DNA of 29,366 nucleotides from a virus, in the IMG/VR virus record IMGVR_UViG_3300022686_000088, positions 1 to 29,366 of that record; one strand, written 5' to 3'. The position numbers and the translations under genes are program-made. A model generated the notes under the pieces. That model worked only from the letters and a program-made list of their open reading frames with translations, searched no databases and had not been told where the DNA came from. Below are positions 1,795-22,431 of the stretch, piece by piece. Position 1 is the first letter of the stretch, and each line of letters opens with the position of its first letter.

Positions 1795-2547
1795 TCAGGA
1801 GACGTTCCACTTGTTCTTGAGGTAGGCCTCGACATCTGCCCGATCGCCCGTTGAGAGGGCACTGTCATACATCAGGATCTCCCCGATCTCGCCCTCGAAC
1901 GCCGTGGACGTGCCGCCGTCGAACGACCCCACGAAGAAGTTGCCGGAGTTGTCCAGGTTGCCGTAGCCGGTGATGTCGACCGGCGAGGCCGGGACCTCGT
2001 TGAAGTCCTCGAACTGGCGGAAGTTGTTGCCGTCACGGACCATGCTGGTGATCCGCACAGTGTCGTCGTTCCAGGTCTCGCTGGAGTCGGACAGCACCAC
2101 CGCGGTCGTGTCGTCGTCGATCGCGCTGGTCATGTCGTCCGAGGGCGCGGCGTTGTTGATCCGCATGTGGTAGCGAATCGAACCGCCCTTGGCCAGCAGC
2201 TCCCCGCGCTCGCCACTCTGGCTGGTGCGGTAGACGACATGGAACTCGAAGTCGCCGGCACCGACGTTGAGGCCGGTGGGGCTCGGTGTGATGATGAAGT
2301 GCTCGTCGACTCCGTCGAACTCGATCATCTGCCGCCCGCTGACCAGCACTGTCGACGGCTGCAAACCGGCGAGGCCCTGAGAGAGGGTGTGGCTGTTGCC
2401 GGACTTGTCCGCCCACGCGCTGACGTTCGACCCGGTGCCGAACGTGATCGTGCTTCCGTCCTGCGCGTCCCACCACGCCATCAGCCCGGCGATGTCGTCG
2501 GGCTGGAAGCCGGGCACGACCAAGAACGAGTTGAGGAGCATCGCCAT
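1795..2547 (-). CDS. Lectin-like (concanavalin/LamG-type) virion protein
   Basis: The 250-residue protein begins MAMLLNSF, with ATG at 2547 and a second in-frame ATG two codons on. The body has the pattern of phage LamG or concanavalin-A-like jelly rolls. GLMAWWDAQDGSTI is followed by SAWADKSGNSHTLSQ (roughly residues 21-57), then EFDGVDEHF, DFEFHVVYRTS, a TVRITSMVRDGN strand, and a C-terminal FEGEIGEILMYDSALS with an AYLKNKW helix. Such domains bind glycans or act as trimeric fibre tips. It starts three bases after the stop of the fibre-like gene, so the pair probably forms the distal receptor-binding apparatus. The ligand cannot be read from the sequence. Confidence 0.85.
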   Translation of the reverse strand: MAMLLNSFLVVPGFQPDDIAGLMAWWDAQDGSTITFGTGSNVSAWADKSGNSHTLSQGLAGLQPSTVLVSGRQMIEFDGVDEHFIITPSPTGLNVGAGDFEFHVVYRTSQSGERGELLAKGGSIRYHMRINNAAPSDDMTSAIDDDTTAVVLSDSSETWNDDTVRITSMVRDGNNFRQFEDFNEVPASPVDITGYGNLDNSGNFFVGSFDGGTSTAFEGEIGEILMYDSALSTGDRADVEAYLKNKWNVS

Positions 2548-2550
2548 GGA

Positions 2551-3471
2551 TCAGCCCCTCGTTCCGATCAGGTAGATCTTCAGGCCAGCGGCGTCCGCCG
2601 ACGAGCCGGCGTCGTCGATGTCGATCGTGATCTCGGCGTCGTCTGCGAGAGAGGTGTCGGAGATCACCGGTGCAGTGGCCGCGGTCTCCGAGGTCTTCTC
2701 CGTCGCGTCGATCGTCAGCTTGGTCGACAGGATCGTCGAGCCGCTCTCGTTGATGTCGACCGTGACCGTGCCGGTGGTGGACGCCGTCGTGAGAGAGGCC
2801 CGCACCTCGCTCAGCGTAAAGGCGTAGGGCATCCGGAACGTCACCTTGCCGGTGCCCGTGGTCAGGACCGTGGTCTCGTCTGAGGCCGCGACGATCAGCG
2901 ACTCGGTCGGGGTGCCGGCGGCGCCGAAGGTGAAGGCGTGCCAGTCACCGGCCCCGTTCGAGACCAACAGCACGCCGGAATACTGCGAGGTGAGCTGGAG
3001 GTTCGACGCTCCGTTGATCGTGTCGGAACCGTTCGGGTCGATCGTGATGGTGCCGGTGCCCTCGTGGAAGACCAGCAGCTCGCGGCCCTCGTTAGCAGCA
3101 GCCAGAGCCTCCAGATCGACGTCGAAGCTGCTCGCGCCCGTCGTCACCACGATCATGTCGTCCGCGTCCACCGCGTAGGTCGTGCTGGCCTCTTGACGCA
3201 GCTTCCGCATGAACGTCCAGTTCGACAGTAGGCGGTAGGCCGAAGCGTCGGACGCGATCGGAACGTCGCCTGAGCCGGCCGTCTTGTAGAGGGCCCAGGC
3301 CAGGGTGTGGTCGTAGCTCCCGGCCGCGAAGGTGCTCTGCAAGTCGGCGAGCGTGTCGTTGTGGAAGTAGAGCGGTATCGGCCGGTCAAAGATGTTCTGG
3401 AAGTTGTCGTTGACCTTGCCGTCCCAGGCCGTCTCGGCCGAGCCGGGGATCTTGCGGGAGTATCGGGCCAT
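2551..3471 (-). CDS. Tail fibre-like protein with C-terminal phage beta-domain
   Basis: The 306-residue protein starts with ATG at 3471 behind AGAGG. The N-terminus (ARYSRKIPGSAETAWDGKVNDNFQNI) looks like an attachment segment. The last 115 or so residues, from SLIVAASDETT to YLIGTRG, match a beta-sandwich type seen at the end of many phage tail and fibre proteins, including the hallmark VTFRMPYAFTLSEVRASL and the INESGSTIL strand. The middle (about 100-190) is Gly/Thr/Ser-rich and beta-prone. Gene order, directly after the tip protein and before the lectin-like gene, supports a distal tail structure. Which of the two proteins contacts the receptor is unknown. Confidence 0.85.
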   Translation of the reverse strand: MARYSRKIPGSAETAWDGKVNDNFQNIFDRPIPLYFHNDTLADLQSTFAAGSYDHTLAWALYKTAGSGDVPIASDASAYRLLSNWTFMRKLRQEASTTYAVDADDMIVVTTGASSFDVDLEALAAANEGRELLVFHEGTGTITIDPNGSDTINGASNLQLTSQYSGVLLVSNGAGDWHAFTFGAAGTPTESLIVAASDETTVLTTGTGKVTFRMPYAFTLSEVRASLTTASTTGTVTVDINESGSTILSTKLTIDATEKTSETAATAPVISDTSLADDAEITIDIDDAGSSADAAGLKIYLIGTRG

Positions 3472-16061: not shown

Positions 16062-16080
16062 GGTGTGGCGGTCTCCGTAA

Positions 16081-16092
16081 GGGTTGAGGGGT
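16081..16092 (-). promoter_or_regulatory. C/A-rich leader element, chaperone gene
   Basis: The leftward mRNA reads ACCCCTCAACCC, ending 19 nt before the ATG at 16061 and followed by a CGGAG site. It is a diverged member of the leader family. Confidence 0.4.
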
Positions 16093-16098
16093 AGAGGT

Positions 16099-16122
16099 CA
16101 GGGGAGGACGGATCCTCCCCTG
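16099..16122. terminator. Perfect hairpin after the major tail protein gene
   Basis: A 10-bp perfect stem (16099-16108 with 16113-16122) closes a 4-nt CGGA loop. No T-run follows on the leftward strand, so it may be a pause site, a partial terminator or an mRNA-stabilising 3' end that lowers expression of downstream genes relative to the tail tube protein. Confidence 0.6.
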
Positions 16123-16147
16123 GGTATCCTACCACAGATCAGCCCGA

Positions 16148-17008: not shown

Positions 17009-17032
17009 GTGAGGATTTCCTCGATCGTTGTC

Positions 17033-17044
17033 GGTTGGGGGGTT
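17033..17044 (-). promoter_or_regulatory. C/A-rich leader element, major tail gene
   Basis: The leftward mRNA reads AACCCCCCAACC, 24 nt before the ATG at 17008 and upstream of the GAGGA site. Confidence 0.5.
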
Positions 17045-17053
17045 ACGTCGGGA

Positions 17054-18053: not shown

Positions 18054-18767
18054 TCAGCTACGCTCCTCGTCGACGAAGTCGTCGATCTCCAGGTCCTCGT
18101 CCTCGTCGTCGTCGAGCAGGTCGCCGAAGAACTCGTCGTCGGACAGTTCGTCGTTCGGACTCGCGTCGGCTGGCGGAGGCCCGTTCACCAGCTCGTCGAA
18201 GATCACCTCGGCGTCGTCGGCGGCCGGCATCTCGACGTGTGGCTGGGCATCGCCCTCGATCACGTCGTCCAGGCTCGGCTCCTCGACCGTGGCCTCATCC
18301 TCGATGATCGGCTCCGGCGCTGCTGCGCGCTCGGCCTCCAGCGTGGCTTGCTTGCGGGCGCACTCCTCGGCCTCCTGCTGTGCCTTCTCGGCCGCCTTCT
18401 TCGCAGCGACCTCGCGTTGCTCCTTGGCGAGCTGCGCAAGTTGCATCTGCACGTCGGCGTTGTGTGGAGTCTCCGACCGGATCGGCCGCTGCTCGCGCTT
18501 GGTCTTCGGATCGTATTCGTCGATCTCGGCCGGCAGCGGTGGGGCCTCGGACGAACGGAACTTGACCACCTTACCGGATGGCGTGACCTTGTAGCTGCCA
18601 GGACGGCGCGCAACTTGGTTGTTGGCGATCAACTCACGGAGAGCCGCCTCGCGACCACGGAAGACGTTGATGTCGATCTCCTGGCCGGGGTGATAGAGGA
18701 TGGGGCCGATCTTCACCGATCCCTGGTCGGTGACGAACAGGACCTTCTTGTCTGCTGTCTGGTTCAT
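18054..18767 (-). CDS. Acidic coiled-coil head-region protein
   Basis: The start is placed at the ATG at 18767, preceded by AAGGA at 10 nt. An upstream ATG pair at 18791 lacks a Shine-Dalgarno. The 237-residue protein has a small folded N-terminal part (VLFVTDQGSVKIGPILYHPGQEIDINVF). A charged coiled coil follows around residues 110-160 (QLAQLAKEQREVAAKKAAEKAQQ), then a long Asp/Glu-rich tail (DELSDDEFFGDLLDDDEDED). Such proteins between the capsid and connector genes have been seen as head-completion or scaffolding helpers, but I recognise no family. The acidic end could mimic DNA or bind basic internal proteins, which is speculation. Confidence 0.75.
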   Translation of the reverse strand: MNQTADKKVLFVTDQGSVKIGPILYHPGQEIDINVFRGREAALRELIANNQVARRPGSYKVTPSGKVVKFRSSEAPPLPAEIDEYDPKTKREQRPIRSETPHNADVQMQLAQLAKEQREVAAKKAAEKAQQEAEECARKQATLEAERAAAPEPIIEDEATVEEPSLDDVIEGDAQPHVEMPAADDAEVIFDELVNGPPPADASPNDELSDDEFFGDLLDDDEDEDLEIDDFVDEERS

Positions 18768-18804: not shown

Positions 18805-18834
18805 AGGGGGAGGGACCAAGTGGCCCCTCCCCCT
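18805..18834. terminator. GC-rich hairpin after the capsid gene
   Basis: AGGGGGAGGG (18805-18814) pairs with CCCTCCCCCT (18825-18834), and CCA/TGG inside the loop can extend the stem. On the leftward strand no T-run follows. Lying between the capsid stop and the next gene, it probably acts as a partial terminator or 3' stabiliser that sets high capsid expression. Confidence 0.6.
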
Positions 18835-18863: not shown

Positions 18864-19910
18864 TCAGCCCGAGACCACCTTCATGCTGACCATGCTGTCC
18901 GGGCGACGCGGGACCGGCAGCGGACGGCTCGTGACGAGCTGCCACCAGACCGACGGATCCTCCTGCACCCAGCTCTTGGAGAAGCGACGGCGACGGATCG
19001 CGCGACCCTCTAGGGCGGTGATGTCGGAGATCGGGCCGAAATACATCGTGTTCTCGGCCTCGGGGAGCACCGAGACGAACTCGGCATACTTCGGACGGAC
19101 CAGGTCGTAGCTCGCACCAGCGACCGTGGTCTTCCGCGAGTAGCTCCAGACGGCGAGGCCGCTGAAGTTCCCCAGGAAGATGGAGCCGTCGGCGTTGAAC
19201 TGCTCGTTGAAGGTCACCTGACCGGCGCTGATGTTCTGGGTGTCGAGCAGCGCGCGAACGCCGTCCGAGTTCAGGAACGCCGTGGTGGCCTCCGAGCCCA
19301 GGAGGACGTGCGTCAGGCCGAGGCCGACGTCGTCCGAGACGAGCTGCTTGGCCGTCAGGAAGTCGTCCGACGGGTTGCCACTCGCCAGGTCCCAGAAGTC
19401 GGTCAGGGTCACGTCGTGCGACGACGACCGAGGGAAGACGACCTCGAAGGCCTCCTCCTCGTCCACCTCGTAGGTGATCGAGCCGCGGAGCGCCTGGGCG
19501 CAGAGATACTCCTCCGCCTCGGTCACGACGTCGTTGAGACGCTGCGACGTGCGGGAGATCTCGCGCTCGGCGCCGTCCAGGACGTCGCCCTCGTCGACGA
19601 AGATGGCTCCGCCGATCTGGCGGTCGAGGATCAGCTCGGCCGGGTTGAGGTGTCGCTTCACGCGGACGTGCGACGTGGTGACGTTCAGCCGTTTCTCGGT
19701 GTAGGGCGTGATCTCGATCGCCTCGCCGGTTCGGCGGGCGAACGGACTGACCACGCGGTCGCCGATCAGGATCGGCACCTCGAAGGTCTCCGCTGCGACA
19801 AGGTCTTCGTTCGAGAAGACCAGTCGCCGGATGAACTGGTTGGGGGACTTGAGCTCGTTGACGAGGCTCGTCAGCGCGGCCCAGCCCGTGATGTCCTTGG
19901 TCTCAGCCAT
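18864..19910 (-). CDS. Major capsid protein (lambda gpE family)
   Basis: The 348-residue protein starts with ATG at 19910 behind AAGGA, close to the 341 residues of lambda gpE. The E-family pattern can be followed: LVFSNEDLVAAETFEVPILIGDRVVSPFARR in the N-terminal arm and E-loop, then EKRLNVTTSHVRVKRHLNPAELI, ERE-ISRTSQRLNDVVTEAEEYLCAQAL as the spine-helix region, SEATTAFLNSDGVRALL, and a C-terminal RRRRFSKSWVQEDPSVWWQLVTSRPLPV. It forms the HK97-fold shell. Gene order of protease, decoration and capsid supports this. A C/A-rich leader and a strong 3' hairpin suggest high expression. Confidence 0.93.
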   Translation of the reverse strand: MAETKDITGWAALTSLVNELKSPNQFIRRLVFSNEDLVAAETFEVPILIGDRVVSPFARRTGEAIEITPYTEKRLNVTTSHVRVKRHLNPAELILDRQIGGAIFVDEGDVLDGAEREISRTSQRLNDVVTEAEEYLCAQALRGSITYEVDEEEAFEVVFPRSSSHDVTLTDFWDLASGNPSDDFLTAKQLVSDDVGLGLTHVLLGSEATTAFLNSDGVRALLDTQNISAGQVTFNEQFNADGSIFLGNFSGLAVWSYSRKTTVAGASYDLVRPKYAEFVSVLPEAENTMYFGPISDITALEGRAIRRRRFSKSWVQEDPSVWWQLVTSRPLPVPRRPDSMVSMKVVSG

Positions 19911-19928
19911 GGTAGTGGTTGCTTCCTT

Positions 19929-19958
19929 GGGGGTTCAGGTCAGGGGTTCAGGGTTGGG
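19929..19958 (-). promoter_or_regulatory. C/A-rich leader element, capsid gene
   Basis: The leftward leader reads CCCAACCCTGAACCCC and then TGACCTGAACCCCC, with the last C-run 18 nt before the ATG at 19910. AAGGA follows. It is the longest and most repeated version of the element. Confidence 0.5.
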
Positions 19959-19959
19959 A

Positions 19960-20736
19960 TCACGGGACCTGGGTCAGGCCACGCACGATGATGCCCTTCT
20001 CGCGCAGCTTCTCGCTGCGGAGGGCGGCGTCCAGCTCCGATTCGCTCGGAGCGCCGTAGGCCGCGAGGATGGTCCTCATCGCCGCGGTGTTGATGTCGTC
20101 GCGGTAGACCTCGCCCTTGATGAGCGCGATCGCCAGGACGTCGTCGGAGGCGTCGAGCTGGACGCCCTCCTCGCCGGGGTTCGCCTCGTAGACGAACGCG
20201 TTGATCTCGTTCGTCCCGTTGAGCTGGGTGCCCGGATCGCTCGCGGCCAGGACGTGCGCGTTGCCCGTCAGACCGGAGACGTCGATGTCGACGCTCGGGG
20301 CGCCGGCCGACTCGTCGAACGTGATCGTGATGACCGCGTCCGCGTCACCGAGGTCGGTGCCCATCGTCGCCGCAGCGGAGAGGGTGTAGGGCTTGCCGGC
20401 ATCCGCCAGCAGCGCGTTGACCTCGGCCTCCAGCGCCGCAGCCGCCACGTCGAACGCGTGGACGGAAGCCAGACCGTCGACCATGAGCTGGAACGTGCCA
20501 GCGGAGGCCGGGGTGGAGTCGGCGGTGATGGTGTAGACCGCAGCGTCGCTGGGCTGGGTGTAGGGGACCCACTTGCTGTTCGCCTTGTCGAAAGCGAGCG
20601 GGGCGCCCAGGGGGAGCAGCTCCGCGCCGGCCGAGGCCGCGATGCGGACACGCTTGGTGCCGTGCATCTCCGGGGTCATGCGGGGGGTGACACCGAGCGT
20701 CTTGGAGCTGAGCAGAGAGTGCTTCTTCAGAGCCAT
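19960..20736 (-). CDS. Capsid decoration protein with inserted domain
   Basis: The 258-residue protein starts with ATG at 20736 behind GAGGA. The ends carry the gpD-like decoration pattern: ELLPLGAPLAFDKANSKWVPY (about 39-59) and, far downstream, INAFVYEANPGEEGVQLDASDDVLAIALIKGEVYRDDINTA (about 180-220). Between them about 115 residues look like an independent beta domain (FQLMVDG, AAAALEAEVNALL, ITITFDES, DVSGLTG), related in style to a repeat widespread in phage virion proteins. Lambda gpD is about 110 residues, so this is a decorated trimer subunit with an extra surface domain. It precedes the capsid gene, as in lambda. Confidence 0.82.
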   Translation of the reverse strand: MALKKHSLLSSKTLGVTPRMTPEMHGTKRVRIAASAGAELLPLGAPLAFDKANSKWVPYTQPSDAAVYTITADSTPASAGTFQLMVDGLASVHAFDVAAAALEAEVNALLADAGKPYTLSAAATMGTDLGDADAVITITFDESAGAPSVDIDVSGLTGNAHVLAASDPGTQLNGTNEINAFVYEANPGEEGVQLDASDDVLAIALIKGEVYRDDINTAAMRTILAAYGAPSESELDAALRSEKLREKGIIVRGLTQVP

Positions 20737-20764: not shown

Positions 20765-20777
20765 TTGGGGTTGGGGT
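20765..20777 (-). promoter_or_regulatory. C/A-rich leader element, decoration gene
   Basis: The leftward mRNA reads ACCCCAACCCCAA, 28 nt before the ATG at 20736. The same 13 bases occur at 21387-21399, inside the protease gene. Confidence 0.55.
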
Positions 20778-20796: not shown

Positions 20797-21369
20797 TCAC
20801 GCCACGGCGCTCGAGCGCCGCTGGGACTTGTTGTGCCGCTCGGCGATCTGCTTGCCGAGGTTCCACTGCTTGGACTCGGACTTGGTGAGACCGTGGACCT
20901 TGCGGCCACCCTTCTCGACCTCGTCCTCCTCGTCCTCGTCGGCGTCCTTGCCGGGCTGACGGCTGGCCTTCTCCAGCTTCTCGATGCGGGCGTTGGCCTC
21001 GTCGCGCTCGCGCTTGGCCTTCTCCAGCTCGGTCTCCTCGGCGCCTTCGCCGTCGGACTTCGCCTTCTCCAGCTTCTCGGCCTCGGCCTCGGCCTTGGCG
21101 CGCTTCGCGGCCTGCTCGCGCCGGTGCTTGATGAGCTTCTGGACGTCGCCGGGCTTGCTCATGTCGAGCTTCGCCACGAACAGGTCGTCCAGATACTTCT
21201 CCAGCTCCTCCTCGGTCGCGTCGGCGCCCGGGGGCTCGGGGAGTTCGTTGGCGGGGGTGTCGATCACGTCGTCGGCGTCCGGCTTAGCGGGCGCGACCGC
21301 CTCGGCGACCGCCGGGGCCACTGCCTTCGCGATCTCCGCCGCGAGAACCTTCATCTCTTCGGGGGTCAT
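20797..21369 (-). CDS. Probable nested scaffold protein from an internal start
   Basis: An in-frame ATG at 21369 (Met321 of the protease-scaffold) has GAGGA 10 nt upstream and, before that, a C/A-rich element identical over 13 bases to the decoration gene leader. The product would be 190 residues. It begins MTPEEMKVLAAEIAKAVAPAV, followed by Pro/Asp linkers and long charged helices (HRREQAAKRAKAEAEAEKLEK, KAKRERDEANARIEKLEKA), and ends in a basic tail suited to bind the capsid protein. This is the arrangement of lambda C/Nu3, where the scaffold is made from an internal start in the protease gene. The internal start is inferred from sequence signals only. Confidence 0.65.
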   Translation of the reverse strand: MTPEEMKVLAAEIAKAVAPAVAEAVAPAKPDADDVIDTPANELPEPPGADATEEELEKYLDDLFVAKLDMSKPGDVQKLIKHRREQAAKRAKAEAEAEKLEKAKSDGEGAEETELEKAKRERDEANARIEKLEKASRQPGKDADEDEEDEVEKGGRKVHGLTKSESKQWNLGKQIAERHNKSQRRSSAVA

Positions 21370-22329
21370 GTTGAGGTCATCCTCGGTTGGGGTTGGGGTG
21401 TCGTGAAGGCGGGACTTGCCGACCAGTTCGACTTCGGCCCGGCCTGCCATCGAAACACCGATCCACTCGCCAAGCTCATAGCCGGCCAGCAGATCGGGAT
21501 CGTGGATCTTGAGGATCAGGCCCCACGCACCGGTGGGGTCGATCTCGTTGCCGGCATCGTCCATGATGCCGGCGAACTTGGGGTCACCGGCGGGCACGAT
21601 GTAGTGCTCGGCGATGTGGACGTCTTCCTTCGACAGGGGAATGTTGTCGTGCTCGATGTCGATGTTCCCGCCGTGCAGCAGGAAGTTGTGCGCCATCTTG
21701 CGGATCTCGTCGGCGGACATGAAGTCGCCCTCGTGGTCGACCAGGTCCGGGACGTAGACGAGCGCGTGGAGCAGGCCCTCGTTGTCCATCTTCGCGATGG
21801 TCGTCTGAAGGTCGAACTCCGCCTCGCCGTCCTTGATGCTCTTGAGCAGGGAGCGCACGCCGTTGATGCCTCGCCGGCACAAGCTGACGGTGTGGATCTC
21901 GCCGTTGCGCAGCCGGCGGCGAGGCTTGCGGCTTTGCTTGTTCAGCGGCAGGCCCTCGTCGTCCTCTTCCTCGTCTTCCTCGGCCTGCGGCGCCTTGCGA
22001 GTCTTGCGCGACTTCTTGGCCATCGCGACGTCGACCATCTGCCGGCGGAGCTGCGCGAGCGCGCGGGTCAGCTCCATCTCGTCCACCTCGTGGGTGTGGC
22101 CGTCGGCCTCGCCGATGACGAGGTTGCCCTCGGCATCCATGGTCCACGGGTGGGAGTGCTCGTCCTCGGTGGCGGCGTCCCCGGTCGAGGGCGACGTCTG
22201 GCCTCCGAGAGTGCCGTTCTCCAGCTCCCATGAGTAGAGCGAGACGGCGTGCTGGTGGCGTTCGACGGAATCGGTGAGGAGGGTGATCGTCTTCTTGACG
22301 GGGGCCTTCCGGCGGGTCTTCGTCGTCAT
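20797..22329 (-). CDS. XkdF-like prohead protease fused to scaffold
   Basis: The start is placed at the ATG at 22329, with AAGGA 9 nt upstream. The open frame continues further, but that part is antisense to the portal gene and reads as noise. The 510-residue protein has a His-rich N-terminal region (ERHQHAVSLYSWE, EHSHPWTMDA, DGHTHEVDE). An acidic linker follows, then the XkdF-type protease domain (about 170-305) with YVPDLVDHEGDFMSADEI, IDIEHDN (His227) and GVSMAGRAE (Ser293), the probable catalytic His and Ser. From about 320 on it is Ala/Glu/Lys-rich coiled coil with a basic end, typical of scaffolds. The protease would mature the prohead and cut its own scaffold part. Confidence 0.88.
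   Translation of the reverse strand: MTTKTRRKAPVKKTITLLTDSVERHQHAVSLYSWELENGTLGGQTSPSTGDAATEDEHSHPWTMDAEGNLVIGEADGHTHEVDEMELTRALAQLRRQMVDVAMAKKSRKTRKAPQAEEDEEEDDEGLPLNKQSRKPRRRLRNGEIHTVSLCRRGINGVRSLLKSIKDGEAEFDLQTTIAKMDNEGLLHALVYVPDLVDHEGDFMSADEIRKMAHNFLLHGGNIDIEHDNIPLSKEDVHIAEHYIVPAGDPKFAGIMDDAGNEIDPTGAWGLILKIHDPDLLAGYELGEWIGVSMAGRAEVELVGKSRLHDTPTPTEDDLNMTPEEMKVLAAEIAKAVAPAVAEAVAPAKPDADDVIDTPANELPEPPGADATEEELEKYLDDLFVAKLDMSKPGDVQKLIKHRREQAAKRAKAEAEAEKLEKAKSDGEGAEETELEKAKRERDEANARIEKLEKASRQPGKDADEDEEDEVEKGGRKVHGLTKSESKQWNLGKQIAERHNKSQRRSSAVA
21387..21399 (-). promoter_or_regulatory. C/A-rich leader element inside the protease gene
   Basis: The leftward mRNA reads ACCCCAACCCCAA, 17 nt before the internal ATG at 21369, in the same relation to a GAGGA site as in the other leaders. 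In the protein it encodes part of the TPTPTEDD linker. Confidence 0.55.
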
Positions 22330-22341
22330 GCTGGGGGATCC

Positions 22342-22371
22342 TTGGCCTAGCGCGCTGCCGTATGGTATTCT
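22342..22371 (+). promoter_or_regulatory. Weak candidate promoter for the portal gene
   Basis: TTGGCC (22342-22347) and TATTCT (22366-22371) are 18 bp apart on the rightward strand, overlapping the leftward candidate. The match is weak, and a phage-specific polymerase or sigma factor could use other sequences. Confidence 0.25.
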
Positions 22372-22391
22372 ACTACATGGATCCGAGTCAA
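22362..22391 (-). promoter_or_regulatory. Candidate promoter for the leftward virion operon
   Basis: On the leftward strand TTGACT (22391-22386) and TACCAT (22367-22362) stand 18 bp apart. TAGAAT (22372-22367) is a better hexamer but only 13 bp away. The implied start point lies about 25 nt before the protease ATG at 22329. This short divergent spacer is the only non-coding gap at the head of the operon. Confidence 0.45.
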
Positions 22392-22431
22392 GCAGGGTCC
22401 CTCCAAGAATTCCGGTCGGAGCTTCCCCCGA

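Follow-up and report, generated by a model that had tools for sequence, protein, structure and literature searches.

XkdF-type proteins are widespread head proteases of phages and of domesticated elements of Gram-positive bacteria, and the source of the scaffold in these systems is not evident from the database records examined, which list single genes. The locus described here raises the question of whether one such gene specifies both a protease-scaffold and a separate scaffold. It lies in a complete virus record of 29,366 bases, referred to below as the window, in which a head-tail run on the minus strand leads from an XkdF protease-scaffold gene (22329..20797) through a 258-aa gene (20736..19960) and the capsid gene (19910..18864) to the tail genes. 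The main features of this run are as follows.

20797..22329, minus strand: XkdF-type protease-scaffold gene, an open frame of 510 aa (PF14550, E=1.2e-21; phrog_3017, head maturation protease, E=1.4e-17).
21430..21798, minus strand: protease domain, residues 178-300 (PF14550 match; AlphaFold pLDDT mostly >90 from about residue 181 to 300).
19960..20736, minus strand: gene at the decoration position, 258 aa, without a family match, between the protease-scaffold gene and the Phage_cap_E capsid gene, as for lambda D.
18864..19910, minus strand: major capsid protein, lambda gpE family (PF03864, E=1.5e-43).
22362..22391, minus strand: candidate head-operon promoter, TTGACT-18-TACCAT (consensus scan only).

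The protease scored 77.5 bits against PF14550 (Peptidase_S78_2, XkdF family; cut-off 24) and has the invariant motif residues of the family in common with other members. The product of 19960..20736 may be a decoration protein, a role assigned from gene position alone. The portal gene is encoded on the plus strand, divergent from the other head genes (window 22330-22431), which separates portal and protease expression. Near its N terminus, the XkdF protein carries a His-rich cassette, HSHPWTMDAEGNLVIGEADGHTHEV (residues 58-80, about 22090-22158), that by eye resembles the C-terminal cassette of the split XkdF proteases L006, L007, L010 and L011, as if it had been moved from end to end.

The initial annotation had proposed that a scaffold start is nested in this gene, on the basis of an in-frame ATG, a Shine-Dalgarno sequence and 13 bases in common with the leader of the next gene. 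All three were located as described. ATG 21369 is codon 321 (Met321) of the 510-aa frame, GAGGA precedes it by exactly 10 nt, and ACCCCAACCCCAA occurs exactly twice in the window, upstream of this ATG and in the leader of the next gene. An in-frame start with initiation signals is therefore present inside the protease gene and past the protease domain. The features of the nested site are the following.

20797..21369, minus strand: proposed nested scaffold frame, 190 aa, from Met321 (in frame; modelled as entirely helical from residue 323; aligns with the nested start of a close relative, L260).
21380..21384, minus strand: Shine-Dalgarno sequence GAGGA before the nested ATG (sequence; duplex energy -6.4).
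21387..21399, minus strand: leader element ACCCCAACCCCAA inside coding sequence (exact copy of 20765-20777).
21376..21405, minus strand: disordered linker, residues 309-318, which carries the codons of the element (pLDDT <50 at 309-318).

The strength of the Shine-Dalgarno sequence at 21369 falls in the range of the protease, decoration, capsid, tail and 16061 genes (-5.2 to -6.6), and 11 of the 79 internal ATGs in the window, 21369 included, have one as good; this signal therefore proves nothing alone. The region upstream is more distinctive. Positions -40 to -17 are 88% A+C and 4% G, against coding means of 53% and 31%, and the region from -40 to +20 folds at -4.8 kcal/mol, against a coding mean of -18.6, making ATG 21369 the second least structured of the 79 internal ATGs. 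Among 5,861 coding codon positions in the window, 0.07% matched the nested start in A+C composition, 0.1% in openness and 0.017% in both. The decoration and capsid leaders are similar to the nested upstream region in A+C content and openness. The stretch before ATG 21369 thus looks like a complete gene leader lying inside coding sequence.

The signal in the window weakens once the amino acids are kept constant, since linker amino acids and linker nucleotides are bound together. Synonymous tests restricted to the window gave p=0.63 for the best Shine-Dalgarno sequence in the tail and p=0.075 for Shine-Dalgarno strength combined with openness at Met321. These tests are weak because GAG-GAY codons for Glu-Asp yield GAGGA by default at the GC content of the window, and selection on the Shine-Dalgarno sequence alone was dropped as an argument for this gene. 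A four-codon out-of-frame ORF (ATG ACC TCA ACA TGA; window 21368-21382, minus strand) has its ATG within GAGGATG, and its stop codon forms an ATGA overlap with the nested start; relative L260 has no such ORF.

To place the nested start within the protein, an AlphaFold model was built with 25 family members. The model showed a confident protease fold up to about residue 303, the disordered linker, and then only helices from residue 323 to the C-terminal end, the first spanning residues 323-345; the helical part was of moderate to low confidence. This places Met321 at the boundary between domains, and a product started there would comprise the entire helical part. The 190-aa product is a predicted scaffold, its function assigned from position. 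A PDB fold search with the whole model returned no match (best E 0.35), and we therefore claim no fold link between the window protease and other proteases; comparing a profile with solved structures yielded nothing beyond weak, chance-like matches.

The shared element was then compared across the window through its core motif, AACCC[CT]. The leaders concerned are listed here.

20765..20777, minus strand: identical 13-mer ACCCCAACCCCAA in the leader of the next gene (sequence match).
19911..19959, minus strand: capsid gene leader with three AACCC[CT] motifs (motif count).
17009..17053, minus strand: major tail protein gene leader with AACCCCCCAACC (sequence).
16062..16147, minus strand: leader of gene 16061 with ACCCCTCAACCC (sequence).

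The window has 12 copies of AACCC[CT] on its minus strand and one on its plus strand. Seven of the 12 minus-strand copies fall within 438 nt of leader sequence (binomial P=1e-10), and the nested site is one of the five minus-strand occurrences outside leaders. The element had been said to precede five other virion genes; the sharing with leaders stands, and the number for AACCC[CT] is four (starts 20736, 19910, 17008 and 16061). The protease gene and the genes with starts at 18767 and 18051 lack the motif in their leaders. The 18767 leader and the 16061 leader contain perfect or near-perfect G-rich/C-rich hairpins (18805-18834, 14 bp, and 16099-16122, 10 bp) just downstream of apparent -10 sites. 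At the nested site the element encodes TPTPT with CCA, a codon used for 9% of prolines. Given TPTPT, the probability of the exact element codons under window codon usage is about 0.0014, a figure that ignores a possible slippage origin of the six-base repeat.

The initial annotation had named as contrary evidence homologues with neither the internal ATG nor the element. When the protease, the capsid, the portal and a tail-region protein were each searched against IMG/VR, no close relative was found; one was reached through the DNA polymerase, in the 54.6-kb record IMGVR_UViG_3300032373_000010 (L256, L260, L261), and it is the one close relative known. Its XkdF protein (L260) is 40% identical to that of the window over 207 alignment columns and retains the ATG, GAGGA, AACCCT and MTPEE. 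BLASTP aligned its MTPEEI with the window MTPEEM exactly at Met321, where the relative reads AACCCTGAAGAGGAATACACC-ATG; the longer upstream stretch, CTCAACCCTGAAGAGGAATACACC-ATG, has AACCC[CT], GAGGA and ATG in the same order as the window. With a minimum free energy of -2.8, the nested site is the least structured among 18 in-frame internal start codons of the gene, and a 6-kb stretch of the relative has just two copies of AACCC[CT] on its minus strand, one of them at this site. The element lies in another codon frame and encodes different amino acids (LNPEE, against TPTPT in the window), and AACCC[CT] is therefore not kept for the sake of the protein, with the caveat that, given Asn-Pro, the motif arises fairly easily in the relative. 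Because the decoration and capsid leaders of the relative are A+C-rich without exact AACCC[CT], we think that what is conserved is a standby region, open and rich in A+C, with AACCC as its common form in the window lineage. The divergent portal arrangement is apparently found in the relative as in the window.

To extend the comparison, fused XkdF genes were collected by two IMG/VR alignment searches and one of GTDB genomes, together with phage records, giving 228 genes in 55 clusters at 60% identity, window counted. A site was counted as strong when an in-frame start codon (ATG, GTG or TTG) with a strong Shine-Dalgarno sequence lay at least 20 codons beyond the protease domain. Such a site was present in 206 of the 227 other, more distant genes and in 48 of the 54 other clusters, so that the proposal of a nested scaffold start like that of lambda Nu3 in an XkdF gene, which we consider the best reading, emerged from the comparison both stronger and more general. 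The site is usually AAGGAGGA-like and is followed by a peptide like [MVL][TKN]KEE[LIV]xKxVxxAlxP. Examples are Lactococcus phismq86 (ACAGGAGGAAGTCGAA-ATG-MTQEELKKALGEA), Enterococcus EG-TP1 and the PBSX-type genes of the Bacillus subtilis group (GGGAAGGAGACTGAAGAA-ATG), the last of which makes the proposal testable in a standard laboratory element. In these PBSX-type xkdF genes (L124-L134) the nested ATG is found near codon 185, and most of the loci have AAGGAG. The nucleotide element itself is not family-wide; other hosts have a strong AAGGAGGA in its place.

Strong sites were found in 46 of 55 tails compared with 4 of 55 protease parts, and synonymous shuffling of the tails gave a combined P=2e-14; the clusters are related and not fully independent. 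The scaffold peptide recurs later in many fused XkdF genes, which provides an internal control. The M, V or L before the peptide was written as ATG, GTG or TTG in 44 of 44 first copies and in 5 of 26 later copies (P=1.7e-13); for valine alone, GTG was used in 20 of 20 first copies compared with 2 of 14 later ones. A strong Shine-Dalgarno sequence preceded 42 of 47 first copies and 3 of 51 later copies. In these comparisons the peptide profile was seeded from sites chosen on DNA, and first and later copies were distinguished by order only. On a tree of the protease domain, start ability was kept through about 21 switches among ATG, GTG and TTG, although many branches are weak and few switches are forced. 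For openness, the nested sites ranked in the top 4% (median) of positions in the genes that carry them. As a family member the window is highly divergent, with a very long branch in this tree, and its Met321 start was not significantly recognised by the Bacillota scaffold-peptide profile.

A second, proximal site was observed 7-9 codons past the XkdF domain in L153, L159, L178, L196, L198, L200, L205, L221, L236 and L241. It consists of a strong Shine-Dalgarno sequence and TTG, with the peptide motif Y-[SG]-[EKT]-E-D-x-x-L, for example AGCGAGGAGGACGTAGAT-TTG, mostly at -11.2 to -11.6. The pairing of proximal and distal starts suggests two nested scaffolds in gut Clostridia-type phages. XkdF proteases are labelled 'DNA methyltransferase' in PHROG 1530 and in Lactococcus phage records (H7, H8, H11, H15, H17), an apparent propagated misannotation.

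The analysis shows the signals in the sequence, how they are conserved and where the domain boundary is predicted to lie; internal initiation, the relative amounts of the products and their scaffold and protease roles are inferred. It is very probable that this one gene yields both a 510-aa protease-scaffold and a free scaffold, the latter by initiation at ATG 21369. A single transcript, perhaps from the promoter-like site at 22391-22362 (consensus only), would serve both products. Initiation at 22329 would give the fusion, and a second initiation at ATG 21369, directed by the leader-like, open A+C-rich stretch and Shine-Dalgarno sequence in the disordered linker, would give a 190-aa all-helical scaffold without the protease. 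The free scaffold, in excess, would co-assemble with the capsid protein and drive capsid assembly, while a minority of fusion molecules, by way of the scaffold domain common to both products, would bring the protease into the prohead; the fused protease copies would then degrade the scaffold.

Three other explanations were weighed against this model. Prohead proteases commonly cut themselves and their scaffolds, and a single fusion polypeptide could release its scaffold by self-cleavage in the linker, with no internal initiation and with TPTPT as a mere flexible linker. The predicted disorder of the linker and the weak window-only synonymous tests are in keeping with this explanation, which does not, however, predict start codons with Shine-Dalgarno sequences past the domain in 48 of 54 clusters, the all-or-none use of ATG, GTG or TTG at the first peptide copy, or the leader-like composition, and we regard it as improbable. 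Even less probable is that the A+C-rich element is some other nucleotide signal, such as a C-rich Rho or S1 binding site or a recombination or packaging-related repeat, beside which the ATG is incidental. C-rich, G-poor tracts such as this one resemble Rho-loading sequence in general, and the seven copies in leaders are also intergenic; against this, the element directly precedes Shine-Dalgarno sequences and start codons, AACCCT, GAGGA and ATG follow one another in identical order at the aligned residue of the relative, and distant genes have a strong Shine-Dalgarno sequence at the analogous place without the element.

Nested initiation could also be real but begin elsewhere, such as at the GTG of codon 337, where the duplex energy is slightly better (-6.6 compared with -6.4). 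That codon lacks the leader-like context and is not the start aligned in the relative, and a product begun there would have an incomplete first predicted helix; we give this explanation very little credence. Initiation at ATG 21369 remains the preferred reading for the window gene. For the family, we lean towards the view that nested in-frame scaffold initiation is ancestral and near-universal in fused XkdF genes (Bacillota, Synergistota and Campylobacterota elements, among them the PBSX-type ones of the Bacillus subtilis group), many gut Clostridia types having two nested starts for a long and a short scaffold. If this is true, one or two proteins go unlisted in most single-gene annotations of these genes. 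A conserved hidden start is a concrete answer to the question of where the XkdF scaffold comes from, and implies that many annotations lack a structural protein; the window itself shows an entire leader placed within coding sequence.

The nested scaffold is an established arrangement, known from lambda and Mu; the near-general presence of one in fused XkdF genes seems, provisionally, to be undescribed. In narrow searches of the open-access literature, a Mu-like case, PaMx73, was the only nested or internal-start scaffold found, and no description was found of a full leader with a genome-specific element embedded in coding sequence; since the searches were narrow and confined to open-access papers, novelty is provisional. 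The internal start of PaMx73, at Val177, was likewise deduced from sequence, namely from ACGAGGA and a spacer of 9 nt (PMC4378225).

Lambda C/Nu3 offers a close parallel, with an in-frame scaffold start within the protease gene and, in C/Nu3-D-E, the same order of protease/scaffold, decoration position and E-family capsid gene (PF03864 for 18864..19910; decoration by position). However, lambda C is an S49-type peptidase by record annotation, whereas the protease of the window has a match to PF14550 and none to an S49 family, and Nu3 has a weak Shine-Dalgarno sequence (-2.7, compared with -6.4 in the window). The window gene would thus work like lambda C/Nu3 without being a homologue of gene C. 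The Mu record similarly describes Z as starting internally, within gene I; unlike the genes studied here, Mu I/Z and PaMx73 are not described as XkdF proteases, and they represent few genomes, the PaMx73 start being a sequence inference. The fused XkdF genes of Bacillota phages and PBSX-type elements have the protease family and a strong in-frame start past the domain in common with the window, but are annotated as single genes in the records examined, lack the AACCC element and mostly have starts farther from the domain. In L003 (1452-4034), a homing-endonuclease-like insertion (ORF 2522-3340) lies between the XkdF gene and a probable scaffold. Finally, the split XkdF systems of Rhizobium RHph_Y1_11, Vibrio 29Fa.3 and Rhodobacter RcTiptonus also place a protease and then a likely scaffold before the capsid gene, but as two separate genes, overlapping by 23-26 nt in two cases, rather than as one nested frame. 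Split XkdF genes are thus an alternative way of uncoupling protease and scaffold.
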